From Chloroflexota bacterium (GTDB lineage Bacteria > Chloroflexota > Chloroflexia > Chloroflexales > Herpetosiphonaceae), in contig JAIUOC010000002.1 in NCBI GenBank assembly GCA_020161265.1, forward strand, positions 372,001 to 436,000: a stretch of 64,000 nt of DNA, given 5' to 3'. The notes under the pieces are model-generated. The model was not told the DNA's origin and did no database searches. It was given only the letters and a program-made list of their open reading frames with translations. Position 1 is the stretch's first letter. Each line of letters opens with the position of its first letter. Of the stretch, positions 1 through 60,233 are shown piece by piece. A program made the position numbers and the translations under genes.

Positions 1-754
1 CAACTTCAGCAAGTTTAACTTTCTCCATGCGTTCACCCAAGCGATCATTGACCACATTCAGCACAGCGGTTTTGAGGCCGCTAAAACTCCAATCGTAGGT
101 TCCGCGCAACCATGCTCGGGGCAATTTGAGTGCACCTGGATTAACCCCACGCGCCACTTTTTCCATTTGCGGGCCGCCTGGATAGCCCAAGCCCATAATT
201 CGCGCCACCTTATCGAACGCCTCGCCCACAGCATCATCACGGGTTTGCCCAAGCAAACGATAATCACCATGATCGTTGAGCAACACCAAGGCCGTGTGTC
301 CACCAGAGACAATCAAGGCTACACACGGAAATTCTGGGGCTTGGTAGGCCAGATCTTTAGCGGTATGCAGCCACGAAGCATAAATATGGCCTTCGAGGTG
401 ATTAACCCCGATAAACGGCAAATTGCGCGACCAAGCAATCGCTTTGGCGGTGTTAATTCCAGTTAATAAAGCGCCAGCTAAGCCTGGGCCATAGGTTGTG
501 GCAACCGCATTAATCGCGCTCCAACCGCCGGGCACTTGGGCCAACACCGTATTAATCACGGGCGTAATCGTCAGAATATGTTGGCGCGAAGCCACTTCGG
601 GCACAACGCCACCATAGCGTTGATGAATATCGATTTGCGAAGCAACGCTATTGGCCACAATCTCGCGACCATCGCGAATAACGGCGGCGGCGGTTTCATC
701 GCACGATGTTTCAATCGCTAAAATCGTAAAACCTGCGGGCATTTGCTGTGACAT
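1..754 (-). CDS. tsaD: tRNA N6-adenosine threonylcarbamoyltransferase TsaD (3' end outside window)
   Basis: Kae1/TsaD family enzyme that transfers threonylcarbamoyl from TC-AMP to A37 of ANN-reading tRNAs, with TsaB and TsaE, in the cytoplasm. The visible 251 codons start at the ATG at 754 ([20 protein letters not shown]). They show the N-terminal ASKHA signature [12 protein letters not shown], the metal-binding HLEGH motif, the SGGHT loop and the GEAFDKVAR segment. The full family is about 330-350 residues, so roughly the last quarter is beyond position 1. The upstream neighbour is a separately terminated small gene. Identification is secure; only the C-terminus is unseen. Confidence 0.96.
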
Positions 755-835
755 GAATTCCTACGTTCTATTTCACCTAGCTGTCAGTTGCGCTACATTG
801 ACGCTGTGCCGTGGCTATGGCATGATATGAGTGGT

Positions 836-870
836 AAAAACGACAACACCCCGTTTTTGGGGTGCTGTCG
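836..870 (-). terminator. Rho-independent terminator of the His-rich small gene
   Basis: The arms CGACAACACCCC and GGGGTGCTGTCG (841-870) form a 12-bp stem with one mismatch around GTTTTT. On the minus strand the stem is followed by TTTTTAC. It lies just downstream of the stop at 876. Confidence 0.85.
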
Positions 871-875
871 TGCGT

Positions 876-1106
876 TTAGTGCTGTGAAGTGGTTTCCTCA
901 GCGTGACTATCAGCAACAACATGCACATCATTTGGATTATGATGTTCAGCGTCGTGATGCTCATGACCATGGTCTGCATCATGATGATCGTGATGGCCAT
1001 GCCCACCAATACTATATTCACGGACTTCACTGGCGGCTTTAACTCGCCGATCATATTCGCCATCGATGGCATCTCGAAATGCCACAAAAAACTCTTTAAT
1101 GCCCAT
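876..1106 (-). CDS. small protein with a His/Asp-rich tail, unknown function
   Basis: A 76-residue protein. The ATG at 1106 is chosen because GGAG lies 8 nt upstream on the minus strand. The N-terminus (MGIKEFFVAFRDAIDGEYDRR) looks helical and charged. Residues about 36-76 are dominated by His, Asp and Glu (for example GHGHHDHHDADHGHEHHD), a composition typical of divalent-metal-binding tails of Ni/Zn/Co proteins. No signal peptide or membrane segment is visible. It is monocistronic with its own terminator and is divergent from the esterase at 1182. Metal binding is an inference from composition only; I do not recognise the family. Confidence 0.75.
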   Translation of the reverse strand: MGIKEFFVAFRDAIDGEYDRRVKAASEVREYSIGGHGHHDHHDADHGHEHHDAEHHNPNDVHVVADSHAEETTSQH

Positions 1107-1181
1107 TACGGTTCTCCGTTGAATGATCTGCTGTCGCATTATACCAAAAGTGGCCGCAGGGTGTAAGAAAGATCATAATTC

Positions 1182-1934
1182 ATGTCAACTGTTGGTTGTT
1201 TAATTCTTCACGGCTTTACGTCATGCGCCGATTCAGTCAATCGCGTGCCGAGCCGTTTAGCTCCCCATCATATTCCGTATCGCATGCCCTATTTGCGTGG
1301 TCATGGCACCTTGCCCGAAGATTTGCAGGGCGTAACCTGGCACGATTGGTATGCTGATGCCAATGCAGCCTTGCGCGATTTACGCCACGAGGTCGATAAA
1401 GTTATTTTGATTGGGCTTTCCATGGGTGGCCTCGTGGCCAATCACCTAGCAGCGGCCCATCGCGATGACGTTATTGGGGTAGTTAGCGTGGCCGCTGCCA
1501 TGCGCTTCCATTATAAACATGCCGATCGGGCACGCTATGTTGCGCCAATGCTAGGGATGTGGGGCGACGAAAATCGTGATATGGGCGCAGGTTGGTACGA
1601 TAAAGAGACCGGTCGCCAACATGGCAATTATCGACGCTTTCCGGCTCCGGCCTTTGTTTCGCTTTGGCGCTATGCCAAAGTCGTGGAACAACAATTGCCA
1701 CGAATTACTGCACCAATCTTAATCATTCATTCACATCAAGATCGTACAATTCCAACATCTGCCGCCGAAGCGATCTATCGCCAAGTTGGCTCCAGCGATA
1801 AACAATTACTATGGTTCGATAAAAGTGGCCACGAAATGCTCCGCGATGGCGAATCGCCAGCAGTCTTAGATGCTGTCGAGCAATTCGTGCTGCATCATCG
1901 TGCTCAATATCAATCATCAACAAACAAGGAGTAG
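1182..1934 (+). CDS. alpha/beta-hydrolase, Est30-type carboxylesterase
   Basis: Serine hydrolase of 250 residues, likely cleaving short carboxyl esters or monoacylglycerols in the cytoplasm. It has the oxyanion-region HG (LILHGFT, His10), the nucleophile elbow GLSMGG with Ser80, a probable acid Asp187 (HSHQDRTIP) and His217 (KSGHEML). Length and motif spacing match the Geobacillus Est30/monoglyceride-lipase group. No signal peptide is visible. The stop lies 8 nt before the LCP gene at 1943, so the two are probably co-transcribed. Substrate cannot be told from sequence. Confidence 0.88.
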   Translation: MSTVGCLILHGFTSCADSVNRVPSRLAPHHIPYRMPYLRGHGTLPEDLQGVTWHDWYADANAALRDLRHEVDKVILIGLSMGGLVANHLAAAHRDDVIGVVSVAAAMRFHYKHADRARYVAPMLGMWGDENRDMGAGWYDKETGRQHGNYRRFPAPAFVSLWRYAKVVEQQLPRITAPILIIHSHQDRTIPTSAAEAIYRQVGSSDKQLLWFDKSGHEMLRDGESPAVLDAVEQFVLHHRAQYQSSTNKE

Positions 1935-1942
1935 ATAGCTGC

Positions 1943-3700
1943 ATGCCTGCAAAAACCGATACACCTGAGGAATCGACCAACGGGTCAGCCAATGATCTAT
2001 CGCTCGATGCTGAGCATGTTCGTAGTCAAGCTACCACGCCCTTGCCAACTCGTTCACGTGCCGCAGCTAAAGCCGATGCTGCCAACGATGCGGCGTTGAT
2101 GAATGATCTGTTGTTGAATAATAATTCGACTGCTGCTGCTCGTCCTCGTCCTCGTACCGTACCACGCGCTGAACACGAAGGATCATATGTTCGCGTGCCC
2201 AAGGCAGTCCAATCGGCGGTTGGCAGCCGACCAACCTCGCGACCATTGCCACCCAAAACTGCTCCCGTCAAAAGTACCTCACGTGGAGCTGGTTGTGGCA
2301 TGATTATGCTTGGAGTATTATTGACGGTGGTTTTGGTCGGTGGTGGTGGGGCACTTTGGGCCTATTTAAAGGTTAAAAATGCCACGAGCGATGCTTTAGT
2401 AACCATCCCAACCCAAGCGCCAAATCTGGTCGAAAATCCTAATAATCCGAATCCTCAGCCCAATCAACCTTTGGCAACCCCCGATATCGTCAAAGATCCT
2501 TTTAATTTGTTGTTGATTGGGGTCGATTTACGCGAGAATGATACCAAAGCTCGCACTGATACGATCATTGTGCTGCATATTGATCCAACCCAAAAATGGG
2601 CAAGCATGGTCTCGATTCCGCGCGATAGTTGCGCCGAAATTCCAGGCTACGATGCCCCAGGCACATGTTCGCAGCGAATTAATGCGGCCTACGAACTGGG
2701 TTATAAAGAAGGTATCGCCCAAAATATGACGATTCCTTCAACTCAGGCAATGGCATTAACTCGCGATACCGTCGCCAATATGCTGAATATTAATATCGAT
2801 TATGTCGCCCAAGTTGATTTTAAGGGCTTTCGCAAAATTGTTGATGCCGTTGGGGGCATTACAATCGATGTACAACGCCCGCTGTGGGATGCCACCTACC
2901 CAACCGATGATGACGATTATGGGGTGATTCGGCTATTTATTCCGGCTGGTTTGCAACATATGGATGGCACAACCGCGCTGCGTTATGCCCGTTCACGCCA
3001 TCAAGATGCCGACTATGGCCGCTCACGCCGCCAGCAAGATGTGATTCGGGCGCTGGTTCAAACCCTCAAAGACAAAGGCTTGCTCGACCAAATTGATGCC
3101 TTGGATAGCCTTGCTGCACAACTCAAAGGCTCGTTCTATACCGACCTGCCAATCGATGACCTTGGCAATTTACGCGCCTTGGCTGGGCTTGGTAGTGATA
3201 TTGCCAATGGCCGGATCAAGAGTGTCAAATGGGATACTAGCTCAGTAATCGGCTATATGGATGAGGCGCAGTATGTGCCAATTTGGGACCCAGCCAGCAT
3301 TGCGGCCACGGTTGATCAATTATTGACCAGCCCAATTCCTGATACCAATAGCCCAGTTGATGGTAGCTCAAACACACCTTCGGACGACAATCTAAGCATC
3401 GAAGTGATCAATGGAGCGCAAATTAGTGGTTTGGCAGGCGATGTAGCAACCCACCTCGAAAACCGTGACTATCAATTGCTCAATCCTTCAACTGCCTCAA
3501 CAGTGTATGACACCACCAAGATCATCGATTTTGGCAACCATAAAGAACTGCGTGAGCAACTTGCTGCTGAATTGGGCATTAGCAGTCGCAACATTATTGT
3601 GGTAAGCAAAACCAGCCCAGCCCCTGAACAACCCAAGGGCGACGCAGCGTTGGTACTGTTGCTTGGTCGCGATTACGACGAGGCTTGGCGCAAACCCTAA
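1943..3700 (+). CDS. LytR-CpsA-Psr (LCP) family membrane protein with LytR_C domain
   Basis: LCP enzymes transfer undecaprenyl-linked glycopolymers to the cell wall outside the membrane. This 585-residue protein has a long polar cytoplasmic N-terminus (1-115, Ala/Arg/Pro rich), one membrane helix at about 118-143, a Pro/Asn linker, and the LCP catalytic domain at about 185-385. That domain carries LLIGVDLR, the Arg/Asp-rich TDTIIVLHIDP strand, SIPRDS and an RYARSRHQDADYGRSRRQQ segment typical of the phosphate-binding Arg cluster. A LytR_C-like domain sits at about 485-580 (SIEVINGAQISGLAG). AAGGAG lies 11 nt before the ATG. What polymer is attached in this lineage is unknown. Confidence 0.93.
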   Translation: MPAKTDTPEESTNGSANDLSLDAEHVRSQATTPLPTRSRAAAKADAANDAALMNDLLLNNNSTAAARPRPRTVPRAEHEGSYVRVPKAVQSAVGSRPTSRPLPPKTAPVKSTSRGAGCGMIMLGVLLTVVLVGGGGALWAYLKVKNATSDALVTIPTQAPNLVENPNNPNPQPNQPLATPDIVKDPFNLLLIGVDLRENDTKARTDTIIVLHIDPTQKWASMVSIPRDSCAEIPGYDAPGTCSQRINAAYELGYKEGIAQNMTIPSTQAMALTRDTVANMLNINIDYVAQVDFKGFRKIVDAVGGITIDVQRPLWDATYPTDDDDYGVIRLFIPAGLQHMDGTTALRYARSRHQDADYGRSRRQQDVIRALVQTLKDKGLLDQIDALDSLAAQLKGSFYTDLPIDDLGNLRALAGLGSDIANGRIKSVKWDTSSVIGYMDEAQYVPIWDPASIAATVDQLLTSPIPDTNSPVDGSSNTPSDDNLSIEVINGAQISGLAGDVATHLENRDYQLLNPSTASTVYDTTKIIDFGNHKELREQLAAELGISSRNIIVVSKTSPAPEQPKGDAALVLLLGRDYDEAWRKP

Positions 3701-3703
3701 TAT

Positions 3704-3753
3704 AGGCTTTAGGCTATTGGCGTTATAAATCTCCGATAGCCTAGCCTAAAGCC
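3704..3753. terminator. hairpin between convergent genes
   Basis: GGCTTTAGGCTA (3704-3715) pairs perfectly with TAGCCTAAAGCC (3742-3753), giving 12 bp with a 26-nt loop, between the LCP stop and the convergent response regulator stop. It has no clear T-run, so it may work in both directions or be a folded repeat. It runs straight into a CTTCGTG-type dispersed repeat (3752-3782). Confidence 0.5.
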
Positions 3754-3784
3754 TTCGTGTGCTTCGTGTCCTTCGTGGATAACA

Positions 3785-4618
3785 TTATTCCTCGGCCAAA
3801 ATATGGTAAAGCTGGGCGATGGCTTCTTTGCGGCGACGATAATATTCGCTTTTCGAGAGGTGTAATTGCTGGGCTTGAGTTTGAGGGTCGTGGAGTTGCA
3901 CAAATTCGCCCTCTAGAATTGCCAAGGTTTCGAGCACATTCAATTGCATGGCCTCACGAATCACCTTAGCAATTTTGGCTTGGGTTTGCAGGCCACGTTG
4001 ATAATCGCTAGCAATCTGCGGAAACAAATATTTGGCCAAATGACTCGTACCCAAACCAACCAAGCCTTGCCGATGCAATTGCAACAGCGCTTTGGTCAGA
4101 TCTTCTTCGTTCAACGGCGGGCTAGGCGTGGGGGCTAGCAAGCGCAAGCGCAGAATATTCAGCAAGGCTTGACTGCCAATCGGCGCTAGTTGAGCGCTTT
4201 TCGCTAGCGCTTGCTCAATGCGCTGGGCCAAATCGGGAGTAGCGGGCTTTTCAAGCACGGCATCACAGCCAAAGGCAATGGCTGTTTGGTGTACTTCGCT
4301 GGCACTTAAGGCAGTCAATGCCACAATTGCCAACGGTGGCAGACTGCCGTTAGCAATCTGAATTTGCAATTGTAAAGCCAAATTTGCACCCGCCAACGAT
4401 GAGGCAACCACTTGCTGAAGCGCAGGATCGTTGGGCATATTTAAATCCACAAGTAATAATATTTGGCTTGGCTGATAGGTCTCCAAGGCCTGCTGTAATT
4501 GCTCGGTAGCCTGTTTGCTGGAACGCGCCATACTGGTTTGATAGCCAGCTGCCTGTAAATAACGCGCCGCCAACTGCCGATCGACCGCCAGATCATCAAC
4601 AATAATGCAATAATTCAT
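3785..4618 (-). CDS. response regulator with HTH-like C-terminus
   Basis: A 277-residue regulator. The receiver domain (about 1-130) has the acidic pair in IIVDDL, the phosphoacceptor Asp in LLLVDLNMP, the Thr switch in VALTALSA and Lys in LEKPATP. The remaining roughly 140 residues are helical. They end in QQLHLSKSEYYRRRKEAI, which resembles a sigma-region-4-like HTH, so DNA binding is likely but not proven. The ATG at 4618 overlaps the kinase stop (ATGA), so the two are translationally coupled and form a cognate pair. A longer reading from further upstream would put kinase-overlapping junk in front of the receiver domain. Confidence 0.85.
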   Translation of the reverse strand: MNYCIIVDDLAVDRQLAARYLQAAGYQTSMARSSKQATEQLQQALETYQPSQILLLVDLNMPNDPALQQVVASSLAGANLALQLQIQIANGSLPPLAIVALTALSASEVHQTAIAFGCDAVLEKPATPDLAQRIEQALAKSAQLAPIGSQALLNILRLRLLAPTPSPPLNEEDLTKALLQLHRQGLVGLGTSHLAKYLFPQIASDYQRGLQTQAKIAKVIREAMQLNVLETLAILEGEFVQLHDPQTQAQQLHLSKSEYYRRRKEAIAQLYHILAEE

Positions 4619-5895
4619 TGCGTAGCCTGTGGAAAATGGAGTTGAATGGTACAACCTGTCGCAACGTCGGGCACATGCAGCCAAGCTTGGGCCTGCGTAA
4701 GCATCTGTTGCACTTGCTTCAAACCCAAGCCTTGGGTGATTGCACTAAAATCAGCCTGATTGAGCGCCGTGCGTAAGGCTTGATGCATGCCAGCCCCATC
4801 ATCACGAACTTCGATGATCACGTTTTGCTCCGATCGATAGCTACGGATATGTACTTCGTGATGGCAACGGCTCAAACTATTATCGAGCAAGTTGAATAAG
4901 GCTCGCTCAAATTGCTCACGATCGGCCACAATCACGCTGCCCGCATCAATTTCAAGCTGCACTTTGGCGATTGGCTCGCTGTAGTAGGCCGCCAAACCGT
5001 TGATTGCTGGCTGCAATTGCCTCAAACAGTGCTGTACATCGATGATTTCGAGGCTCGCCCGCTGGCGACCAAGCTGCTGACGGGCTTGATCCAGCAAATT
5101 ATTAAGTTGACGTTCGACCCGTTGGGTTGCGGCTAGCGCTGGCTGAATCGTACTATTTGTGCTTGGTTGTTCAAACGCCAAGCCTTGTAACAAGCCTTGG
5201 ACGCTTTTCAAGGGCTGGCGCAAATCGTGTTTCAGCAAACTCAGTTGTTGCACATGGGTTTGTAAATCGTGGAGTTGCTGTTGCATGCTGCTCTGTTGTT
5301 GCACCAAATCAGCGGTTTGGCTCTGTTGTTGGCTGGCATGCCATAAGGTTTGGCGCGAAACAAAGCCAATCGTGCTGCACATCAGCACAATGCTCAGCAC
5401 GACAATCATCACCAAGGCCCATTCATTGAGCACAATAAATTGGCTGGCAAAGCAATAATTCAGCCCAATCAGCCCGCCACTGTACGCCAACACCTGCCAA
5501 AATGGCATCACCACCGCAAAACTGGCCAACGCAAACAGCTCTACAATAATCACATTTGGCAAGTGCATCACATAGGCTAAAACCGTATTATGTGTCATTG
5601 CAAACACCATCGTAGCATGCCACGCCCAATTAATCTGTTTACGCCGGATCAACCACCAAACCAGTAAAGGATTGAGCAGGCTACGGGTAAGGTGTAAAAC
5701 TAAAACACTACTTGGCTGCTGATGATTGGCCACCGCTACGATTAATACAAATGTAAATGGCAAAGCCAAACCACCAGCCAACAGCATAATCCACTCTATC
5801 AAGCGACGTTTGTTGTGCTCAAGCAGGTGTTGGTAATGACCTACAATAGCTGGATCGGCATGATTTTTGGTTCGATTAATGATCGTTTTGAGCAT
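4615..5895 (-). CDS. membrane sensor histidine kinase
   Basis: A 426-residue kinase. The N-terminal half holds about six hydrophobic segments with short loops and no large periplasmic domain. A Gln-rich coiled-coil linker (around 180-215) follows, then an H-box with the phosphoacceptor in KHDLRQPLKSVQG. The HATPase_c domain has an N-box (FNLLDNS), G1 (DDGAGM) and a short G2 (GLGLKQV). The sensor layout is like kinases that sense membrane or peptide cues rather than periplasmic ligands. The ATG at 5895 overlaps the upstream small gene by 20 nt; the SD is weak, consistent with coupling. It partners the response regulator at 3785-4618. Confidence 0.88.
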   Translation of the reverse strand: MLKTIINRTKNHADPAIVGHYQHLLEHNKRRLIEWIMLLAGGLALPFTFVLIVAVANHQQPSSVLVLHLTRSLLNPLLVWWLIRRKQINWAWHATMVFAMTHNTVLAYVMHLPNVIIVELFALASFAVVMPFWQVLAYSGGLIGLNYCFASQFIVLNEWALVMIVVLSIVLMCSTIGFVSRQTLWHASQQQSQTADLVQQQSSMQQQLHDLQTHVQQLSLLKHDLRQPLKSVQGLLQGLAFEQPSTNSTIQPALAATQRVERQLNNLLDQARQQLGRQRASLEIIDVQHCLRQLQPAINGLAAYYSEPIAKVQLEIDAGSVIVADREQFERALFNLLDNSLSRCHHEVHIRSYRSEQNVIIEVRDDGAGMHQALRTALNQADFSAITQGLGLKQVQQMLTQAQAWLHVPDVATGCTIQLHFPQATQ

Positions 5896-6196
5896 TGTTG
5901 AACCGTCTTTTGAGGCTAGCCAGCATCGTCTGATAATCGTGATCAAACAGCCAGCCAAAGCAACAAAACAGCATCAGGCTATTCAAGTCAGCACTCACTA
6001 CAATCGCCAGCAACTCGAATGGCAACAAATAGGCAATGATGCTATGCAAAAAATCAATACAGCCAACGATTAATAACGCAATCAAGCTAAAACTAAGAAT
6101 TTCGAATGCTCCACGCGGGCGAAAATGCTGAATTAAACACCAACGACTAAGCGCAGTAATTGCCAGATGCACTGGCCATAGATGACTGAAGATCAT
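5876..6196 (-). CDS. small hydrophobic membrane protein next to the kinase
   Basis: A 106-residue protein (start MIFSHLWPVHLAI) with three or four predicted membrane helices, including GAFEILSFSLIALLIVG and LLPFELLAIVVSADL, and a basic C-terminus (SLKRRFNNAQNDH). The ATG at 6196 is preferred; a TTG 18 nt upstream is possible. It overlaps the kinase start by 20 nt, so it belongs to the same transcript. I do not recognise a family. Its position suggests an accessory or signal-sensing partner of the kinase, which is inference. Confidence 0.65.
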   Translation of the reverse strand: MIFSHLWPVHLAITALSRWCLIQHFRPRGAFEILSFSLIALLIVGCIDFLHSIIAYLLPFELLAIVVSADLNSLMLFCCFGWLFDHDYQTMLASLKRRFNNAQNDH

Positions 6197-6200
6197 CAAT

Positions 6201-6320
6201 TCACCAACGCTCAACGATCAATTGCAGTACTAAACAACTAAACAGCCCCAACCCGCAACCCAAGCCAATCCCAATAATTGGCCAGAACAGCCGTTTAGCC
6301 TCACGATCAAACTTCAACAC
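6201..6320 (-). CDS. possible 39-residue single-span membrane peptide
   Basis: An open frame starting at GTG 6320 (next codon TTG) reads MLKFDREAKRLFWPIIGIGL and continues through a Gly/Leu-rich hydrophobic span to LIVERW. This is a basic head followed by one membrane helix. It stops at 6201, five bases before the ATG of the next gene. The only clear SD (GGAG at about 6340) is 19 nt from the GTG. That SD is better placed for an ATG opening a five-codon frame (MSVAC) which ends on the GTG, so translation may be coupled to a mini-leader. Coding status is uncertain. Confidence 0.35.
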   Translation of the reverse strand: MLKFDREAKRLFWPIIGIGLGCGLGLFSCLVLQLIVERW

Positions 6321-6417
6321 GCTACACTCATGAAACTAGCTCCAACTGATTCGCTCAGCGCTAGTTTAGCTGAATCGGTTGTGTTTGAATCGGGCTTTTT
6401 CCCAGCTTTTTCCCAAG

Positions 6418-8508
6418 CTAGATGGCTAAAATGCTGGCGGGGCTAGGCACTAAATCGCGGGTAACTACGCGCTCATTGGCTCGATTGGGAGCCAAAATAT
6501 CAATTGGTTCTTGAGGTTCGAGCTGATTGTTGGAGCCAGTCGTAAACCATGGCGTAATTCGCAAGCGCCAGCCATTCAAGGTTTCATCAAGATTAAGCGT
6601 AAGCAAGCTTTGCAATAATGGTGAGCGATCGTGATTAAGCGCATTGGTGTAGCCGCGATTTAAAATATTTGGCTCTTGGCCGACGAGCCAGCGGCGCAAG
6701 CCCCACATTTGGTCATCAAGCTCGATTTTGCCGTTGAATTTTGACCGAAGCTGTTGCGCTGTTGGAAAGACTTCGCGCAACATCACCTGATCGACGATAT
6801 CCTGTTCATCGTCACGGTAGACAAAGCGCGATTCCAAGGGGGTCATGCCGCTAGGCGTGTGCCAATGTAAATCAACTGGCTTGCTCAGATACGCGCCACC
6901 ACCGCCATTGACCAGATGATGCGCAATATGTTGGGTTCCGCGCAAAGTGATATAGCGAGCTTCGTAATGTTGGAAGGCATGGGTATCGCCGCCAATCACC
7001 ACATGGGTTTCATAGCGCCGCAATAATTCATACAATTGGCGCATGCCAGGGTGATCGGCAAAGGCTCCATTAACATATAACGGCTCGCTGAGCACTACCG
7101 CAATAATTTTTTGTTGATTGAAGGCCGCTAGTAAACAGGTTTCCAGCCATTGCAACTGAATTGGATCGACGCTGCCGATGCAGCCGGTATCGACCGCCAA
7201 CAACACAAATGGCACAGGATCAAAGCTCAATTCAAAAAATGGCAAGCGTTGGTGAGTGCGCGGCTCATTCAGGTCGCCGCCAAGCCGCGTCAGGCCATAG
7301 CGTTGGCGCAAACTTTGCACTTCGTTCCAACGTAATTGACCCCATGGGTAGCCATAGCGTGCCCAAGGCCCAGTTTTGAGTGCTTTGGCCCATTGTTGCA
7401 ATTGCGGATCGCGGCTTTCGACATGGGCGGCGGCATAGCCAAAATTCAGCATCAAGCCCTTTAAATCGTTGTACCAATCGTGATTGCCCGCCAAACCATA
7501 CATTAATGGCGGGGTTGGGCTATCGCTCGCATAAGGTCGATACAGCGTGCGTTCATAATCCATCAACTCGCCAGCTGGGTAAACAATATCCGAGCTAAGG
7601 ATGGTAAAAGTGGGGTAAGCCGGATTGGCTGGGCCTTGTTGCGCCAATGCGCTTTGTTCGGGCACAATTGGCGGGGCAATCTGCGATTCGTCGCCCTCAC
7701 CAGGATCGCCAATCACCGCGAAGGTAAAACCGCGTTGCGGGTGAGCGACTGGCTCAATTTTGGCGGCTTTGGCGACATCACGCGGCGCTTTGCTACCCAC
7801 AATATGCTCGATATAGGCCATACGCACCGTATCAGCCAAATCGCTTTCGGCCAACGGTGGAATCCCCCAACGTGGCATCAAACTATATTTCAAATGGGGC
7901 AACAATGTGCGCCAGTTTGGCGGGTCGATCCACGAGAAGCTGCCACTTTTGAGCAAACGCCGCGCAAGGTAGAATCCCAAATAGTAAATGGTGAGTAGCA
8001 CACACAGGGTTGCTAGCAATTCAACCCAATTTTTAATCGCATCGATAAAACGAGTGTCGCTATCGAGAATTCGCGCTGGAACCAGCAATAGTTCTAATAT
8101 GATGGCAATTCCGCTGACCGTCAGCAAGACCATACATAAAAATTGGATGACGACTAGCACGCCGCCAGTATAGCTTGAGGGTGAACGATCGCCTGCGCGT
8201 AAGCGTCGCCGTAGCTCGCGATAGAGCGTCAGCAAGCCCATAATTGCTAATGAGCTGGCAATCACCGTGCGTAGTTGAGGAAACGGCAGCAGTGCGAGGG
8301 TGAGCATGGTTGTGCTGACCGCAAAAATCTTAATCAGCAGCAGGGCTGCCCCAGCCAATTCCATCATCGTCATGGTGCGATGTGCCCAGTGTGAGGTTTC
8401 GATCCAAATTAAACTGAGCACTAAGATTGTGGTGATGATTAAGTAGGTACGAGCCGAGCTTGGCATGCCCAACGCAACCAAATATTCAGCGATTGTTCCA
8501 AGCAGCAT
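6418..8508 (-). CDS. membrane-anchored metallophosphoesterase
   Basis: A 696-residue protein. Residues about 1-190 contain five or six membrane helices. Residues about 270-600 form a calcineurin-like phosphoesterase: FAVIGDPGEG supplies the first metal ligands, GLAGNHDWYN is the GNHD block, and VVIGGDTHAFQHYEA supplies the GDxHxxxH-type block, followed by VNGGGGAYL. A roughly 100-residue C-terminal domain follows. The ATG at 8508 has GAGG 6 nt upstream; a TTG 48 nt further up is less likely. It appears monocistronic. Substrate is unknown; a membrane-bound phosphodiesterase acting on lipid or wall precursors is one guess. Confidence 0.85.
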   Translation of the reverse strand: MLLGTIAEYLVALGMPSSARTYLIITTILVLSLIWIETSHWAHRTMTMMELAGAALLLIKIFAVSTTMLTLALLPFPQLRTVIASSLAIMGLLTLYRELRRRLRAGDRSPSSYTGGVLVVIQFLCMVLLTVSGIAIILELLLVPARILDSDTRFIDAIKNWVELLATLCVLLTIYYLGFYLARRLLKSGSFSWIDPPNWRTLLPHLKYSLMPRWGIPPLAESDLADTVRMAYIEHIVGSKAPRDVAKAAKIEPVAHPQRGFTFAVIGDPGEGDESQIAPPIVPEQSALAQQGPANPAYPTFTILSSDIVYPAGELMDYERTLYRPYASDSPTPPLMYGLAGNHDWYNDLKGLMLNFGYAAAHVESRDPQLQQWAKALKTGPWARYGYPWGQLRWNEVQSLRQRYGLTRLGGDLNEPRTHQRLPFFELSFDPVPFVLLAVDTGCIGSVDPIQLQWLETCLLAAFNQQKIIAVVLSEPLYVNGAFADHPGMRQLYELLRRYETHVVIGGDTHAFQHYEARYITLRGTQHIAHHLVNGGGGAYLSKPVDLHWHTPSGMTPLESRFVYRDDEQDIVDQVMLREVFPTAQQLRSKFNGKIELDDQMWGLRRWLVGQEPNILNRGYTNALNHDRSPLLQSLLTLNLDETLNGWRLRITPWFTTGSNNQLEPQEPIDILAPNRANERVVTRDLVPSPASILAI

Positions 8509-33406: not shown

Positions 33407-35590
33407 ATGCGAAATGTTCAATTACGCATGCTCTTGCTTGTTGGGCTATTGGCGGGCTTGAGCACTGGGGTCTGGCTGCGACGACCAGCGGCCTATGCCG
33501 TGCCTAGCGCTACCAGCCAAACCCTACCGCCACCAGCGCGGGTCGCGGTGACAACTCGTAGTTTCAACAACGCTCGCACTGGCACAACCGCCGCCGAGCA
33601 ACTACTAGCCCCAACCAATGTTATGTCTACCACCTTTGGTAAATTGTTCAGCCGCACAGTTGACGGCCAGATCTACGCTCAACCGTTGTATGTGCCCGAT
33701 TTGAACATGCCCGGGGTTGGCACTCGCAACGTCGTATTTGTTGCAACTCAAAAAAACAACGTTTACGCCTTCGATGCTGACGATCCAGCGATGAGCCAGC
33801 CATTGTGGTCGCTCAACCTTGGGCCATACGCGATTAGCAATTTAAAAGAATTTGGCACGCGCTATAATGGCGGCGTGTACCAAGATATCAAGCCCTACGT
33901 TGGGATTACCGGCTCGCCAGTGATCGATCCGGCCACCAACACGCTCTATGTTGTACCATTTATCCGCCTAGGAGCCTATCAATATCAACATCGTATGATT
34001 GCGATTAATATTTTGGATGGCACACTTATTCAATCCACCACGATCCAAGGCTCAGTGCCAGGTGATGGCAACGATGCTAATCCCAATGATGGAATTGTCG
34101 TATTCGATAGCCGCCAGCATTTGCAACGTTCTTCATTGCTGCTTGACGGCAATCGGGTGTATGTGGCATTTGCTGGCTATGCCGACACCGATCCTTACCA
34201 TGGTTGGGTCTTTGGCTACAACAAAACGACCCTGCAACAAGAATTGATCTACAACACAACGCCGCAAAAAGAAGTTACTTCGCAGCCCAACGCCGCCAAT
34301 GATGGCGAAGGTGGTATCTGGATGAGCGGGCAAGGCCTTACCAGCGATGGTCAAGGCAATTTGTATCTTTCGATTGGCAACGGCAGTTGGAACGCCAATT
34401 TGCCCAATGGCCGCGATTATGGCTCGTCGGTCAACAAATTGAATGTCACTAATCCACTCTCGCCAACCGTTGAAACATGGTTTACGCCTTACGATTATAA
34501 AACCCTCAACACCAACGACACCGACCTAGGCACAACTGGCGCGGTCTTAATTCCCAATACCAATGTGATGATCGCTGGCAGTAAGGGCGGCAAAATCTAT
34601 GTCTTCAATCGCAATGATATGGGTGGTCTAGGGGTTCAGCAAGGCACAACTGGCTTTGATAAAACTGTGCCCGGCAAGTTCTATCAAAGCTTCAAACCCC
34701 ATGGTGGCTCGGGCTTTCGTGGAATTTTTGGCACACCAGTGGTTTGGGCAGCTGGTGGGGCAACCGGCACTCGCATGTTTGTTTGGCCAGTCAATTCGCC
34801 GTTGAAAGCTTTTCAATTTAGCACGACGCAGCCATTGACCCCAAGTTTTAATACCACGCCTGTAGCCACCAGCACCTTGCAAACCGTGACGATGCCTGGT
34901 GGTGTGATGTCGTTATCGTGGAATGGCAGCAACGCCAATACCGGAATCGTTTGGGCAACCCACTCGACTGGCGGCAGCGCCAATACCACCACCCAGCCCG
35001 GGGTTATTCATGCCTATAACGCCTTGACCTTGCAAGAAACCTGGAATAGCAACCAAAACGCTACCCGCGACGCGATGGGCAATTTGGCCAAATTCAATAC
35101 CCCATTAATTGCTGATGGTAAAGTCATCGTTGGCACATTCTCAGTCGATAGCATCACCAACACCGATAAATTGGTGGTGTATGGTCATTTAGCTCCGCGA
35201 ATTGTGCGCGAACCAGTTGATACTACGGTTGCTTTTGGCCAAAATGCTAGCGTCAATGTAACCGCAACTGGCGCGGCAAATCTCAGTTATCAATGGTATC
35301 GTGGCACAACTGGCGACACCAGTAACCCAATCAGTGGTGCAACAATGCCAAGTTTAACCTTGACCAATGTCCAAACCAATAGCCAAGTTTGGGTGCGCGT
35401 CGCCAATCAGCAAGGCAATGTAAATAGCATTACCGCTAGCGTGATGGTGACCAATATTCCAACCAACACGCCGACAATTACGCCAACACCGAGCAACACA
35501 CCGACCCCCAGCAATACCCCAACGCCAAGCAACACGCCAGTTGTTAGCCAATGGAAGGTTTGGTTACCAATGGCAATGCGAGGTCAATAA
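33407..35590 (+). CDS. secreted PQQ-like beta-propeller protein with Ig-like domain and C-terminal tail motif
   Basis: A 727-residue exported protein. Signal peptide MRNVQLRMLLLVGLLAGLST ends near Tyr/Ala at about 31. Residues about 50-600 form a quinoprotein-like propeller (NVVFVATQKNNVYAFDADDP and ITGSPVIDPATNTLYVVPF). An Ig-like domain follows at about 602-690 (SYQWYRGTTGDTSNPISGA). Then a TPTPSNTPTPSNTPT stalk leads to the tail WKVWLPMAMRGQ. The tail, one short hydrophobic strand with Pro and terminal basics, matches those of three other secreted proteins in this window. AAGGAG lies 7 nt before the ATG. It probably sits at the cell surface. Whether it binds PQQ is unknown. Confidence 0.87.
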   Translation: MRNVQLRMLLLVGLLAGLSTGVWLRRPAAYAVPSATSQTLPPPARVAVTTRSFNNARTGTTAAEQLLAPTNVMSTTFGKLFSRTVDGQIYAQPLYVPDLNMPGVGTRNVVFVATQKNNVYAFDADDPAMSQPLWSLNLGPYAISNLKEFGTRYNGGVYQDIKPYVGITGSPVIDPATNTLYVVPFIRLGAYQYQHRMIAINILDGTLIQSTTIQGSVPGDGNDANPNDGIVVFDSRQHLQRSSLLLDGNRVYVAFAGYADTDPYHGWVFGYNKTTLQQELIYNTTPQKEVTSQPNAANDGEGGIWMSGQGLTSDGQGNLYLSIGNGSWNANLPNGRDYGSSVNKLNVTNPLSPTVETWFTPYDYKTLNTNDTDLGTTGAVLIPNTNVMIAGSKGGKIYVFNRNDMGGLGVQQGTTGFDKTVPGKFYQSFKPHGGSGFRGIFGTPVVWAAGGATGTRMFVWPVNSPLKAFQFSTTQPLTPSFNTTPVATSTLQTVTMPGGVMSLSWNGSNANTGIVWATHSTGGSANTTTQPGVIHAYNALTLQETWNSNQNATRDAMGNLAKFNTPLIADGKVIVGTFSVDSITNTDKLVVYGHLAPRIVREPVDTTVAFGQNASVNVTATGAANLSYQWYRGTTGDTSNPISGATMPSLTLTNVQTNSQVWVRVANQQGNVNSITASVMVTNIPTNTPTITPTPSNTPTPSNTPTPSNTPVVSQWKVWLPMAMRGQ

Positions 35591-36384
35591 TGCTGATTGA
35601 TCGTCAACTAGCGGCCCAACTTGAGGCTGCTGATGCGCATAATTTGCGTCAATATACCGCTGCGGTAGCCAACATTGTGCCTACAAGCCAGGCAACCTGG
35701 GCGCAGATTGGCGATGCAACAGCTTGCTACACTGGCCCCGACTTACCGATTAATCGGGCGGTTGGGGCTGGCAGCCAACAGCCTTGGGATGCACAACAAT
35801 TTGCTGCATTAGAAGATTTTTATCGGCAACGTCAACTAGCAGTTAGCCTCGAACTAACCCCATTCAGCGATCCGAGTCTGTCAACACTGTTGAGCCAGCG
35901 CAATTACCGAATTATTCGTTGGTGGAGTGTGCTAGCCTTTGACATGCTGCGTTATACCCCTTTTAGCCCAAGTAGTGTACAATCGCGGATGATCGCACCT
36001 GAACAGCCCGAACTATGGGTTGAAGCTATGACCAACCATGGCCAAAGTAGCCCGATGGGCATCACGATGGCCAGGGCTGCCGCCGCCCGATCGGATAGCC
36101 AGCTTTTTGGAGCGTGGCTTGAAGATCAACTGATTGGTTGTGGCGCATTAAGCATTAATGCCGAAGTTGCCACGCTGTTTTCAACCTTTGTCAAGCCAGA
36201 TTGGCGACGGCGCGGAGCACAAACCAGCCTGATTGCAGCACGTTTAGCTTATGCTCAGGCCCAAGGTTGTCGTTGGGCAACCGTGCTAACCATTAGTGGG
36301 AGCGATTCGCAACGGATTGTAACGCGAGCTGGTTTTGAGCTTGCCTACAATAAAGTGACGCTAGAAGAGCAACGAGGATCGTAG
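35590..36384 (+). CDS. GNAT-family N-acetyltransferase
   Basis: A 264-residue protein. The ATG overlaps the preceding stop (TAATG). The N-terminal half (1-150) is a divergent, possibly degenerate GNAT-like domain. The C-terminal half has the acetyl-CoA motif A KPDWRRRGAQTSLIAARLAYA and a following VLTISGSDSQRIVTRAGF strand-helix. Substrate is not predictable; coupling to the secreted propeller gene may just reflect compact layout. Confidence 0.8.
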   Translation: MLIDRQLAAQLEAADAHNLRQYTAAVANIVPTSQATWAQIGDATACYTGPDLPINRAVGAGSQQPWDAQQFAALEDFYRQRQLAVSLELTPFSDPSLSTLLSQRNYRIIRWWSVLAFDMLRYTPFSPSSVQSRMIAPEQPELWVEAMTNHGQSSPMGITMARAAAARSDSQLFGAWLEDQLIGCGALSINAEVATLFSTFVKPDWRRRGAQTSLIAARLAYAQAQGCRWATVLTISGSDSQRIVTRAGFELAYNKVTLEEQRGS

Positions 36385-36410
36385 ACAATCTATCTAGGAG
36401 GAAGCTGCAC

Positions 36411-37010
36411 ATGTATCGTGTGGAATCGGTAGCGGAACGACAAACCTTGGCCGACCTGATTCGTGGCAAATCACTGGGTCGTGATCTTGCGCTGATTATC
36501 GGGTTTAGTTTGTTTGTTGCCCTCACCGCTCAAATTGCTATTCCGTTGCCTTGGACTCCCGTGCCAATTACGGGCCAGACCTTGGGGGTGTTGCTGACGG
36601 GGGCGATTTTGGGGCCACGTCGTGGCGCTTTGGCGATTTTGCTTTATCTGGTCGAGGGCTTGGCTGGAATGCCTGTCTTTGCTGGCATGACCAGCGGCTT
36701 GGCTAAATTGCTCGGCCCAACTGGTGGGTATCTCCTGTCGTGGCCATTGGCCGCAGCTTTGGTGGGCTGGTTGGCTCAACGTGGCTGGGATCGGCGGATT
36801 CCAACCGCTTTGGCGATGTTTTGTTTTGGCAATATCTTGATCTACGCGATCGGTGCATCGTGGCTAAACATCTACAAAGATACGTTTGGTCAAATCAGCG
36901 TGATGTGGGCGGGGGTTTATCCCTTCTTGCCTGGTGATGCTTTGAAGATTGTGATTGCGGCCTTGGTATTACCTGGGGCGTGGGCGCTATTCGGGCGCAA
37001 CGAACGCTAA
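36411..37010 (+). CDS. bioY: biotin transporter BioY
   Basis: S-component of an ECF-type biotin transporter. The 199-residue protein has six membrane helices and the BioY signatures QIAIPLPWTPVPITGQT, GAILGPRRGALAILLYL and GMPVFAGMTSGLAKLLGPTGGYL. AGGAGG precedes the ATG at 36411. No EcfA/T genes are adjacent, so it uses shared energising subunits or works alone. A hairpin follows. Confidence 0.95.
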   Translation: MYRVESVAERQTLADLIRGKSLGRDLALIIGFSLFVALTAQIAIPLPWTPVPITGQTLGVLLTGAILGPRRGALAILLYLVEGLAGMPVFAGMTSGLAKLLGPTGGYLLSWPLAAALVGWLAQRGWDRRIPTALAMFCFGNILIYAIGASWLNIYKDTFGQISVMWAGVYPFLPGDALKIVIAALVLPGAWALFGRNER

Positions 37011-37028
37011 ACTTGTTTGGCTAAACCA

Positions 37029-37059
37029 CAACACGGCTGAAATTGCTTCAGCCGTGTTG
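37029..37059. terminator. bidirectional hairpin between bioY and a convergent small gene
   Basis: CAACACGGCTGAA pairs with TTCAGCCGTGTTG, 13 bp with a 5-nt loop, followed by GCATTT on the plus strand. It lies 18 nt after the bioY stop and 4 nt beyond the stop of the minus-strand gene at 37064. Confidence 0.8.
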
Positions 37060-37063
37060 GCAT

Positions 37064-37312
37064 TTAACCGCGTCGGAACATGCCGAAGAAACTGCTTTTT
37101 GGTTGGAGCTTGTGCATCAGCATCAGCCGATATTGGCCCCAATCGCCTGGATCACGCTCGATCCGCAAATCGTAGTGATGATTGATAAAGACTGGACCAT
37201 ATTCGTTGTTGGCCGATTGGGATAAGCCGCGTTTTGTGCCTTCCTCTTTAAGTCGCTCGACAAGTGGTGCAAGCTCTACGCCTTGCATCAAGATTTCACG
37301 CTTCACGTTCAT
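37064..37312 (-). CDS. small protein of unknown function
   Basis: An 82-residue soluble protein. The ATG at 37312 is chosen for AAGGAG 8 nt upstream (MNVKREILMQGVELAPLVER). It contains a short beta-rich part (EYGPVFINHHYDLRIERDPG, then GQYRLMLMHKL) and a basic, Phe-rich C-terminus (SSFFGMFRRG). I do not recognise it. It is convergent with bioY. Confidence 0.65.
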   Translation of the reverse strand: MNVKREILMQGVELAPLVERLKEEGTKRGLSQSANNEYGPVFINHHYDLRIERDPGDWGQYRLMLMHKLQPKSSFFGMFRRG

Positions 37313-37681
37313 CTCAGTAACTCCTTGGGTATGTAGATATCGTTGAATTAATAATGTCATGTGGGTTTTATCCTATCATGCTGTGCAAGAGCTATGCCAT
37401 AAGCCATGTGTCCTACACAACGATAGGGCGTAGTAGAAAGGAGGAATTATGAGGGAGGAAAGCTGAAGTTTTAACCACGAAGGACACGAAGAGGCACGAA
37501 GGGAGCTGATTAACGACTGGTTTTGTAGGAGCTAAATCGATTCAGACAGCTGTAGGAATATGATCTGGGTAATCTGTGGCTAAAAATGGCCTTGGCGTTC
37601 TTCGCGCTCTTCGCGGTTCCAATCCTTTGTGCCCTTCATGGATCAAAAATCTGGCTTAATCCCTATGTTCTATGCTCTATT
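37313..37681. other. repeat-bearing intergenic gap
   Basis: Contains AACCACGAAGGACACGAAGA followed by GGCACGAAGG (about 37473-37502), TTCTTCGCGCTCTTCGCGG (about 37598-37616) and CCTTTGTGCCCTTCATGGAT (about 37623-37642). All are variants of dispersed words also found at 3752, 12062, 25206 and 39971. No gene is seen. Confidence 0.6.
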
Positions 37682-38074
37682 TTATGCATGTTGTTGGCCA
37701 CGCAAGGGTGGCCCAGCAGCTTGCAATTCGGAATATTCGGCATCGCTAAATACTCGTGAACGAGTTAAAAAGCGCAAGCCTTCAGGCGCTTCGACCGAAA
37801 AGCCGCTACCACGACCTTTGACCACATCGATGATTAATTGGGTATGTTGCCAATATTCAAATTGCGGCCCGCTGATATAAAATGGGCAGCCTGCAATCTC
37901 GCCAAGATACACATCGTACTGACCGATTCGAAATTCTTGGCGGGGGTAGCACATTGGGGCACTGCCATCGCAGCAGCCACCCGATTGATGAAATAATAAT
38001 GGGCCATGCAATTGGCTGAGTTTAGCAACCAAGGCTTCAGTTTGTTCGGTTGCCAGCACACGTTCAACCGTCAT
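37682..38074 (-). CDS. DUF779 family protein, aldehyde dehydrogenase companion
   Basis: A 130-residue protein of the DUF779 family, habitually encoded next to AldB/ExaC-type acetaldehyde dehydrogenases. It shows the hallmark HQSGGCCDGSAPMCYP with its Cys-Cys pair, a later FYISGPQFEYWQHTQLIIDV and VEAPEGLRFLTRSRVF. The Cys-rich block suggests a metal or thiol role; the function is undefined. It lies downstream of the dehydrogenase at 38155 but is separated by a strong terminator, so it may have its own promoter or arise by read-through. Confidence 0.9.
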   Translation of the reverse strand: MTVERVLATEQTEALVAKLSQLHGPLLFHQSGGCCDGSAPMCYPRQEFRIGQYDVYLGEIAGCPFYISGPQFEYWQHTQLIIDVVKGRGSGFSVEAPEGLRFLTRSRVFSDAEYSELQAAGPPLRGQQHA

Positions 38075-38092
38075 GATCCAACTCCTTGTTGA

Positions 38093-38131
38093 GATAAAAA
38101 CACTACCGCAAGCAGCAAACCTGCGGTAGTG
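38093..38131 (-). terminator. terminator after the aldehyde dehydrogenase
   Basis: CACTACCGCA (38101-38110) pairs with TGCGGTAGTG (38122-38131). On the minus strand five T follow. It lies 24 nt past the dehydrogenase stop. Confidence 0.88.
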
Positions 38132-38154
38132 TGACGTTTGGAAGCACCAATCAA

Positions 38155-39675
38155 CTAAAAGAAGCCCATTGGATTGGGATCGTAGCTGACCAACAGGTTT
38201 TTAACTTGTTGATAATGGTTAAGCATCATCTTATGGTTTTCGCGGCCAATCCCCGATTGTTTGTAGCCACCAAACGCAGCATGGGCTGGATACAAGTGGT
38301 AGCAGTTAGTCCAAACGCGACCTGCTTGGATGGCGCGACCCATACGATAGGCTGTGTTCATATCGCGTGTCCACAAACCAGCGCCTAGGCCATACAAGGT
38401 ATCATTGGCAATACTCAAGGCATCGTCAAAATCATCGAACGAAGTTACCGAAACAACTGGCCCGAAAATTTCTTCTTGGAAAATGCGCATGCGGTTGTTG
38501 CCAGCAAAGATCGTCGGCTGAATGTAATAGCCTTCGGCTAAATCGCCGCTGAGTTCGGCTTTAGCCCCACCAACCAGCACTTTAGCCCCTTCGTCGCGGC
38601 CAATCGCCAAATACGACAAAATTTTCTCAAATTGATCGTTAGAGGCTTGTGCACCCACCATGGTGGCAGGATCAAGCGGGTTGCCCTGAATGCAGCGTTT
38701 GGTGCGTTCGACCGCTCGCTCTAAAAACTCACCATAGATTGATTTTTGAATTAATGCCCGTGATGGGCAGGTACAAACTTCACCTTGGTTCAAGGCAAAC
38801 ATGGTAAAGCCTTCGAGCGCTTTATCAACAAACGCATCTTGCTTGCTCAAAACATCCTCGAAGAAGATGTTGGGCGATTTACCACCAAGCTCTAAGGTCA
38901 CAGGAATGATATTTTCTGAGGCATATTGCATAATCAAACGGCCTGTGGTGGTTTCGCCAGTGAAGGCTATTTTGGCGATCCGATTGCTGCTGGCCAATGG
39001 CTTGCCTGCTTCAATCCCAAAGCCATTGACCACATTGACCACGCCCGCTGGAATCAAATCGCCAATCAATTCCATCAAGACCAAAATTGTGCTGGGCGTT
39101 TGCTCGGCGGGCTTGAGTACCACACAATTGCCAGCAGCGAGGGCTGGAGCCAATTTCCAAGTTGCCATCAACAGCGGGAAATTCCACGGAATAATTTGGC
39201 CCACCACACCCAGCGGTTCATAAAAATGATAGGCAATCGTATTTTCGTCGATTGTGGCCGCACTGCCTTCTTGCGCCCGAATCACTCCAGCAAAATAGCG
39301 GAAGTGATCGATCGCTAGCGGTAAATCGGCGGCGAGCGTTTCGCGCACAGGCTTGCCATTTTCCCATGTTTCGGCGACCGCCAACATCTCTAAGTTGGCT
39401 TCCATGCGGTCGGCAATCTTATTCAGAATATTGGCACGTTGGGCAGGTGAGGTTGCACCCCAAGCAGCTTTGGCAGCATGGGCCGCATCGAGCGCTTTTT
39501 CGATGTCTTCGGCGGTCGAACGAGGAATTTCGCAGAACGGCTTGCCATTAACTGGGCTGATATTTTCAAAATACATGCCCTTGACTGGCTCAACAAACTC
39601 GCCATTGATGTAGTTGCCATACCGTGACTTAAAACTGACTTTACTGCCCGGCTGATTGGGATTGGTGTAGACCAC
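38155..39675 (-). CDS. NAD-dependent acetaldehyde/aldehyde dehydrogenase (AldB/ExaC type)
   Basis: A 506-residue ALDH oxidising short aldehydes to acids with NAD(P). The GTG start at 39675 has GGAGG 5 nt upstream and gives the usual N-terminus and length. An upstream in-frame ATG would add 27 unlikely residues. Catalytic features are [21 protein letters not shown], the Glu in [10 protein letters not shown] and the nucleophile Cys in [26 protein letters not shown] follows. With DUF779 nearby it fits acetaldehyde removal during alcohol oxidation or general aldehyde detoxification. Confidence 0.93.
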
Positions 39676-40107
39676 AGTGTCCTCCAATAAGCATGTTTCA
39701 AGCTTGGGCCAAAATGAGTGGGGGAATGTTTCAAACCAGAGGTGAAGCGTTTCCAAACGTCGTGCCTGTTATGATATCACAAAATAGAACATAGAACATA
39801 GTGTTGAGTGGGCAGGGATCAGGGGCTAGGGATCAGGGGTCAGATACATTTTAATTAACGCAGAGGCGCAGAGAGCGAAGGATGCAGGATGAAGGCAAAA
39901 AGGTCGGAGCGAGCAATCAAGCATTGGGCATAGGAGAATAATCATAGCAATCTGTGGCAAAAAACTTAACTTCGCGATCTTCGTGTTCTTAGCGGTTTCA
40001 GTTCTTCGTCGATCAACATTCATATATTCTATGTTCTTTGCGCTTACTTTTGCATAATTACTGCAAATCGGCTAGCATAGAGCGCTGATTATTGTAGGAG
40101 TTTGGGT
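39676..40107. other. repeat-rich intergenic gap
   Basis: A 432-bp gap between divergent genes. It has AATAGAACATAGAACATAG, then GGGATCAGGGGCTAGGGAT and another CAGGGGTCAG (about 39783-39842), ACGCAGAGGCGCAGAGAG (39860-39877), GAAGGATGCAGGATGAAGG (39879-39897) and a CTTCGCGATCTTCGTGTTCTT stretch from 39971. It also has TTGCATAATT and ACTGCAAAT near 40050-40065, which may hold the promoter of the gene at 40108. No gene is seen. Confidence 0.6.
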
Positions 40108-57963: not shown

Positions 57964-58023
57964 AGAAGTTTCCTCGATTCCGAATAATAATCCTAGACTC
58001 TTAGTATTGACTATCGGAACTAT

Positions 58024-58050
58024 GCTTGCTATAGGACTAATGGCCCAAAA
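58024..58050 (-). promoter_or_regulatory. conserved upstream element, copy A
   Basis: The core TGCTATAGGACTAATGGCCC is shared with copies B and C. It sits 61-87 nt upstream of the paralog A start. It may be a promoter or regulator site. Confidence 0.5.
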
Positions 58051-58230
58051 ATAAACTTATTTACAACTATCGTTATTTTTATTCATTAAGCAAGCTTTTA
58101 CGGCTACTTTGCAGCATCAAATTTCTGGCACGCGCTTTGAAACCGATCTATCACCACGTTAATATCCATTAAAATCTCCCAAATCTAAAGAACTATCACT
58201 TCTAACCTTGAAGAAATATGTTTAAATGCC

Positions 58231-58257
58231 AACCGATCGCCATAACGACGATCGGTT
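58231..58257 (-). terminator. terminator of paralog B with CGATCG stem
   Basis: AACCGATCG (58231-58239) pairs with CGATCGGTT (58249-58257). On the minus strand GGCATTT follows. Confidence 0.75.
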
Positions 58258-58279
58258 AAGCAGGCTTGAACTCAGCAGT

Positions 58280-60067: not shown

Positions 60068-60132
60068 AGGGGTCCTCCTCTAAATTAGATTAATGGGCCT
60101 AGGCTGTTAAGTATTCACCAACTAGGACTACT

Positions 60133-60158
60133 CCTGCTATAGGACAAATGGCCCAAAA
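60133..60158 (-). promoter_or_regulatory. conserved upstream element, copy B
   Basis: The core CTGCTATAGGACAAATGGCC sits 66-91 nt upstream of the paralog B start. Downstream AT-rich words (TAGCAATATAGATAT) are also shared with copy C. Confidence 0.5.
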
Positions 60159-60233
60159 AACAAGCTATCTAGCAATATAGATATTAAAAATCATTAAAGA
60201 AGCTCGCTAGCAATAATGAATTTAAATTGAATT

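Follow-up and report, generated by a model that had tools for sequence, protein, structure and literature searches.

The system nearest in build to the operon analysed in this study is saePQRS of Staphylococcus aureus, in which SaeP and SaeQ form a ternary complex with SaeS and are dispensable for activation; SaeQ has 157 amino acids (aa) and four predicted spans, and the saeP1 promoter is autoinduced and carries direct repeats with an 11-bp period, GTTAAN6GTTAA (PMC5083920). In other systems, ScrA is described as activating SaeS through transmembrane contacts (PMC12239555), MgrB, SafA and UgtS as controlling PhoQ by direct contact, transmembrane in the case of MgrB (PMC10576120), and LiaF as a negative regulator (PMC3543457). 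The operon compared with these systems lies on the minus strand, at positions 3785 to 6320, of a 64,000-nt stretch of DNA from a Chloroflexota bacterium of the family Herpetosiphonaceae (GenBank assembly GCA_020161265.1, contig JAIUOC010000002.1, positions 372,001 to 436,000), referred to below as the window. Its four frames follow each other in close succession: a short open reading frame (ORF), the gene of a membrane protein of 106 residues, and those of a multi-span HisKA kinase and a response regulator. The data suggest that the locus encodes a two-component system together with two accessory membrane proteins that would tune the kinase inside the membrane, a reading to which a probability of roughly 0.55 is given here. 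A literature search on Herpetosiphon two-component systems, on small membrane proteins with kinases and on Agr in Chloroflexi found nothing on this operon.

The likeness to saePQRS is one of layout, a four-gene operon with two putatively auxiliary genes ahead, a multi-span protein among them and a putative first promoter that bears a repeat. Two extra genes and a direct repeat upstream are present here, and binding of the repeat by the regulator is putative. However, the first protein here is a single-span protein of 38 or 39 aa whereas SaeP is a lipoprotein, the kinase gene precedes the regulator gene here and follows it in saePQRS, the kinase here is multi-span, and the C-terminus of the regulator here has no Pfam family. 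No family common to the two small proteins and SaeP/SaeQ was seen, as judged from absent Pfam matches rather than from direct comparison, and the promotion of phosphatase activity by SaePQ cannot be carried over to this operon. With ScrA and SaeS, and with MgrB, SafA and UgtS and PhoQ, the locus shares the pairing of a small membrane protein with a kinase, contact between the two being predicted here. The genes of ScrA, MgrB, SafA and UgtS lie outside the kinase operon, whereas the small gene here leads it, and the likeness is judged by build and not by sequence comparison. LiaFSR and VraTSR are alike in that an accessory membrane protein belongs to the kinase and regulator, but no LiaF-type Pfam match was found in the small proteins of the window or in the six orthologues of the 106-residue protein; in addition, the LiaS sensor is small and LiaR is of the NarL type. 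The parallels with saePQRS, ScrA and MgrB are analogies and do not imply homology.

Conservation and coding of the short ORF

An earlier reading of the window from its sequence alone (the sequence-only reading) had described a four-cistron signalling cassette in this order, linked by stop/start overlaps, and had suggested looking for conserved syntenic copies. All four frames are present on the minus strand, and their order is fixed across the six Herpetosiphon genomes, where the upstream flank is syntenic as well. The overlaps hold at two junctions: kinase and regulator overlap by 4 nt in the sequence ATGA (-4), and the frame of the 106-residue protein shares 20 nt with that of the kinase (-20). 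The stop codon of the short ORF, however, is separated from the ATG of the next gene by a gap of 4 nt (+4). An ATG stands at all three spacings in 6/6 genomes, with an extra kinase ATG at -11 in one of them (G003).

The short ORF occupies positions 6201 to 6320 if it starts at the GTG at 6320 (39 codons), or 6201 to 6317 if it starts at the TTG at 6317 (38 codons). The same reading had taken it for a possible peptide, a claim that a frame broken in close relatives would have undermined, and the frame is intact in all six genomes. Across these genomes 29 of 117 nucleotide columns vary, and they fall on codon positions 1, 2 and 3 as 5, 2 and 22. Only 5 amino-acid columns vary (first codon excluded), whereas 2000 shuffles of the same substitutions had a mean of 17.2 and a minimum of 11, none of them reaching 5. 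In all, 33 of the 39 residues are invariant, the start codon being counted among the six others. The short ORF is a real, preserved protein and not a chance frame. For the 9 pairs listed out of 15, its ratio of nonsynonymous to synonymous substitution (dN/dS, Nei-Gojobori) lies between 0 and 0.13, with dS near saturation in some pairs; in the same pairs the ratio is 0.13-0.37 for the 106-residue protein, 0.12-0.19 for the kinase and 0.05-0.08 for the regulator. Judging from these substitution patterns, purifying selection on the short ORF is strong. When the window copy is compared with the three genomes of the far clade, identity is 87-90% for the short ORF, 87-91% for the regulator, 70-71% for the kinase and 54-55% for the 106-residue protein. 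Five syntenic neighbour genes span 78-96%, so the short ORF is conserved like an ordinary gene and not extraordinarily, and yet so little variation is, on these alignments, striking for a peptide.

The translation start has more than one candidate. GTG is found at the first position in five of the genomes and GTA in G005, the next codon is TTG in all six, and the far-clade genomes (G002, G004 and G005) have an in-frame ATG directly 5' of the GTG or GTA codon. Positions 6327 to 6331 (minus strand), 6 nt before the GTG or GTA, hold a putative ribosome-binding-like site that reads AGGAG in the other five genomes and ATGAG in the window. This change, seen only in the window strain, opens an upstream frame of five codons that ends in a stop overlapping the TTG codon.

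The short spacing to the next gene and the altered site raise the alternative that the short ORF is mainly a leader whose translation controls the 106-residue gene and the kinase by coupling or attenuation, with the peptide itself doing little. The gap of 4 nt that separates it from the following ATG in 6/6 genomes would suit such a role, as would the upstream ATG in place of AGGAG, though the latter is confined to the window strain. It is the amino acids that are conserved, however, beyond what keeping a frame would need, and a scan of positions 3600-6600 found no Rfam family at the gathering threshold. A leader function appears highly improbable.

The membrane proteins and the kinase

The short protein has a charged, net-basic N-terminus, one Gly-rich span with the sequence GLGCGLG and a short ERW end. 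A hydropathy scan of two sequences found one hydrophobic segment, which runs nearly to the C-terminus, with no visible leader, and the protein matched no Pfam family. On these features it qualifies as a genuine small single-span membrane protein. Within the span, glycines are spaced at i/i+4, with G19/G23 and G21/G25 invariant and G17 present in four of the six genomes.

The 106-residue protein (positions 5876 to 6196, minus strand) is a multi-span protein with an ortholog in each of the six Herpetosiphon genomes and is the fastest-evolving of the four. C46, D48, H51, E61, N72, C78 and C79 are invariant, and the invariant polar residues sit inside hydrophobic stretches. The window protein belongs to no known family and has no Pfam match; the other orthologues gave very weak matches to five families (E 0.024 to 0.7), none of them hit in more than one of the six members, and these were taken as chance. 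The possibility that this protein is a stray piece of the kinase sensor was rejected, since profile comparison gave a probability of 0.4% over 13 columns.

The kinase (positions 4615 to 5895, minus strand) combines a multi-span sensor with short loops, a coiled linker and the HisKA and HATPase_c domains (30.9 bits against a Pfam cut-off of 26.9, and 40.8 against 26.4). It has no sensor domain recognised by Pfam. A simple hydropathy cut-off counts 4 membrane segments in the window protein and 3 in that of G002, whereas inspection by eye suggests about six spans and no long extracytoplasmic loop, in agreement with the earlier description of a sensor that is nearly all membrane. The regulator (positions 3785 to 4618, minus strand) has a receiver (Response_reg, 33.3 bits, cut-off 30.2) and a C-terminal helical domain that ends in a helix-turn-helix (HTH)-like motif, LSKSEYYRRRKEAI. 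Across the seven aligned orthologues, the kinase motif KHDLRQPL and the N and G boxes are invariant, as are D8/D9, D58, T102 and K124 of the regulator. We take KHDLRQPL to be the phospho-acceptor His motif, and D8/D9 (the acidic pocket), D58 and K124 to be receiver active-site residues. By these domains and residues the pair classifies as a two-component system of the HisKA type.

The distribution of the genes in the phylum was examined in 400 genomes per query, with a limited number of candidates scored per genome. Orthologues of the regulator were found in seven genomes (E<=1e-15), the six Herpetosiphon and a metagenome-assembled genome (MAG) of another genus of Herpetosiphonaceae (G007), in which kinase and regulator genes are adjacent. 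Neither the short ORF nor the 106-residue protein gave a match in G007, be it beside this pair or elsewhere in the genome. The kinases of the window and G007 are 21% identical in the sensor part (residues 1-180) and 38% in the linker and transmitter. Because G007 keeps the kinase and regulator without them, the small genes look accessory, as additions to, or losses from, an older kinase-regulator pair.

Matches to the 106-residue protein were found in nine genomes, three of them weak and partial (E 0.002-0.007). The short ORF had matches in 51 genomes at E<=0.1, in 45 of these weak only, and each Herpetosiphon genome has, in addition to the true match, one or two further weak ones. The weak matches were taken as chance, one of them, the best, having been inspected; in that case (G201, E 4e-4) residues 3-29 align to a 77-aa two-span protein of a distant genome of the phylum (L053 1366-1599), and no kinase was seen near it in the 2.85-kb stretch. 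Strong matches to either small protein were found only at this operon, in six of the 400 genomes each. In a search of 41 relatives the 106-residue protein was found in 6 and the regulator in 15, of which 7 were full-length and the rest mainly the receiver part. The 106-residue protein had no match in two other genomes of the family that are 75-76% complete, one of which had a receiver-only match to the regulator. A scan for the regulator among the contigs of 84,980 species that hold one of two peptide patterns gave seven loci: four Herpetosiphon, one Herpetosiphonaceae MAG and two that were receiver-only.

This distribution bears on whether the two small membrane proteins are an output of the system or an independent membrane unit, for example in envelope protection or as a small membrane-enzyme subunit, and merely co-regulated. 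D48, H51, E61, N72 and the three cysteines of the 106-residue protein, within hydrophobic stretches, would suit a functional site, and known single-span subunits of membrane complexes are equally short. However, strong matches to both proteins are found only in front of this kinase, the operon holds no enzyme, and the downstream neighbour varies between genomes. We regard this explanation as unlikely, though it carries some weight.

The sequence-only reading had also compared the layout with peptide-quorum systems of the AgrB/C/A type, in which case the short ORF would encode a pheromone that leaves the cell as a peptide and is sensed by the kinase, the 106-residue protein assisting in its processing or export, as in Agr- or Com-like quorum sensing. 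Gene order resembles that of peptide-kinase-regulator cassettes, and like AgrBDCA the operon unites a short ORF, a membrane protein, a multi-span kinase and a regulator. The multi-span kinase without a recognised sensor domain and the conserved Cys and Gly residues of the peptide would also fit, as would the very weak Peptidase_M50B match (E 0.095) in one of the six orthologues of the 106-residue protein. Agr systems, however, pair a GHKL/HPK10 kinase with a LytTR regulator, and the gene order of AgrBDCA differs from that of this operon. Here the kinase is of the HisKA type, with the GHKL model HATPase_c_5 at 16 bits, under its cut-off of 22, the regulator had no LytTR match at E<=10, and the short ORF matched no Pfam family. 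AgrB (PF04647) matched in none of the seven genomes searched, although its single match in 14 control genomes was below the cut-off, so that the sensitivity of this search was not well shown. Pfam found no AgrB match for any of the six orthologues of the 106-residue protein, that of the window included, and HExxH, the M50 motif, occurs in none of the six; the earlier remark that no AgrB-like protease motif is visible agrees with this. Pheromones of the Agr/ComC kind diversify, whereas this peptide is nearly invariant and its would-be processing protein evolves fastest of the four. The hydrophobic span reaching almost to the C-terminus, with no leader visible, likewise argues against an exported, processed signal. 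Membership in Agr-type quorum sensing was rejected on these grounds, and a pheromone of any such kind appears improbable. The same reading had envisaged a new way of sensing membrane or peptide cues; a membrane cue is plausible, but a peptide cue is not supported.

The preferred reading, with both small proteins accessory to the kinase, draws on the fixed order and spacings in 6/6 genomes, the purifying selection on the short ORF, the pair without small genes in G007, the i/i+4 glycines, the conserved upstream elements (repeat, spacer and -10-like block, described below) and the precedents of MgrB, SafA, UgtS, ScrA and SaePQ. Beyond coding and conservation, the mechanism we infer is that the kinase senses inside the membrane or at its surface through its multi-span domain. 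The single-span protein of about 38 residues, its glycine-rich helix oriented with the N-terminus probably in the cytoplasm, would lie in the membrane with the kinase, and it and the 106-residue protein would set the kinase/phosphatase balance through helix-helix contacts. A membrane cue would alter this complex, upon which the kinase would phosphorylate the regulator, whose C-terminal HTH-like domain may then bind DNA. One target is probably the operon's own promoter, at an 11-bp direct repeat, which would give a feedback loop; autoregulation of this kind would also set the dose of both small proteins. Binding of the kinase by the small proteins, the sign of their effect, the signal and binding of the repeat by the regulator all belong to the predicted part of this scheme.

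A bolder form of the proposal, which we consider distinctly unlikely, is that the kinase and the two small proteins together make up a sensor of three parts that lies entirely in the membrane. In it the helix of the short protein would act as a built-in ligand; its packing, perhaps by way of the buried conserved Cys, Asp, His and Glu residues, would read a lipid, redox or metal state, and the operon's own repeat would close a feedback through a regulator with a non-Pfam output domain.

The regulator and the putative promoter

The region before the short ORF contains two conserved elements. The first is the direct repeat TTGGGAAAAA-N-CTGGGAAAAA at positions 6396 to 6416 (minus strand), two copies with an 11-bp period, located just after the stop codon that ends the phosphoesterase-like gene upstream; 19 of its 21 columns are identical in the six genomes. 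The second is a -10-like block, TAAACTAG (TAnACTAG), at positions 6361 to 6368 on the same strand, with 7 of 8 columns identical. If this block is the -10 element, the repeat, a putative regulator-binding site, would lie at about -60 to -40. The spacer between them is 27 nt in 6/6 genomes, with only 3 of 27 columns identical; for scale, 132 of 180 columns are identical in the preceding coding sequence and 14 in the 40-nt leader. A spacer of constant length and drifting sequence, as seen here, is what one would expect where an activator site keeps a set distance from a -10 element. We read this region as an autoregulated promoter, and the operon's own regulator may bind the repeat.

Allowing up to two mismatches, the repeat has one match per genome, only at this operon (exact in five genomes, one mismatch in G005), and a backward control gave 0 matches. 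A relaxed pattern was exact only at this operon, with 3-7 one-mismatch sites per genome elsewhere. Of six such sites inspected, five fall within, or on the border of, frames of at least 250 codons. The other, L095 1501-1518, is in no long frame; this one-mismatch version occurs in 5/6 genomes and is possibly a second binding site or something unrelated.

The C-terminus of the regulator is harder to place. LSKSEYYRRRKEAI looks like a helix-turn-helix-like motif, and the NCBIfam domain MG284/MPN403 touches it weakly (19 bits, cut-off 37.3). No winged-helix family, the class of SaeR, matched the regulator at E<=10 in Pfam. In the structure model (predicted local distance difference test, pLDDT, 64.6) residues 145-206 are below pLDDT 50. 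The receiver fold was clear in a Foldseek search, where the best 50 of 1392 matches are all receiver-bearing proteins; because the matches listed are of this kind, they leave the C-terminus undefined. A profile search of the PDB gave 0 matches at 1e-5. A profile of the C-terminal part, run against 150 genomes of the class, had matches in 24, namely the 7 orthologues plus 17 that were weak (E 5e-6 to 9e-4); two of the weak ones were inspected by eye and seem to combine an HTH at the N-terminus with a P-loop ATPase. In another family of the order, proteins of 520-544 aa (L079 1111-2673 and L080 1060-2694) stand beside a frame like ribose-phosphate pyrophosphokinase and have by eye an HTH-like start, a middle weakly like the regulator C-terminus and an ATPase-like end.

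Several points weigh against the proposal of accessory proteins and autoregulation. A shared operon alone is no proof of contact, so that contact between small protein and kinase is a prediction. The co-occurrence of the genes is weak phylogenetic evidence, as the full set is found only in six species of one genus, and the pair without the small genes comes from just one relative, a MAG. The structure model of the 106-residue protein is poor (pLDDT 62.5, predicted template modelling score 0.28). The C-terminal ~130 residues of the regulator match no Pfam family, and residues 145-206 are modelled with low confidence, so the case for DNA binding comes from the HTH-like motif. A sigma-70 consensus scan reported no promoter at the -10-like block, which leaves conservation and fixed spacing to argue for it. 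One exact repeat per genome would also be unusual for a regulator site; other targets may be looser, or the repeat may belong elsewhere.

Flanking genes and wider meaning

The gene 5' of the operon is phosphoesterase-like (Metallophos 21.1 bits, just below the cut-off of 21.5). The downstream flank differs between species, with an LCP-family gene in G000 and G003 and an aldehyde dehydrogenase gene in the other four by the authors' own reading of the names. The rearrangement places LCP and hydrolase genes 3' of the regulator in G000 and G003, and aldehyde dehydrogenase and BioY there in the others; in the window the latter two are about 33-36 kb off (1-3784 against 35551-39756, compared with 12-kb stretches of the relatives). 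Farther along the window (56794-61939), four adjacent minus-strand ORFs carry repeated modules with Thr/Pro-rich linkers between them. Three of the four have a related N-terminus and the fourth (60290-61144) may be the remnant of a disrupted gene; the group has the look of a family of secreted proteins arranged in tandem.

Only a few systems in which a small membrane protein tunes a kinase have come to our notice, and most are from enterobacteria and staphylococci. If the proposal is true, this operon would add a case in Chloroflexota, recognised from its sequence, where coding is clearly supported. As the gene of the small protein stands first in the kinase operon, its partner and regulator would be named at once. 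The output domain of that regulator lies outside Pfam families. Few inputs are known for kinases without an external sensor domain, and a conserved partner in the same operon would make the input of this kinase testable.

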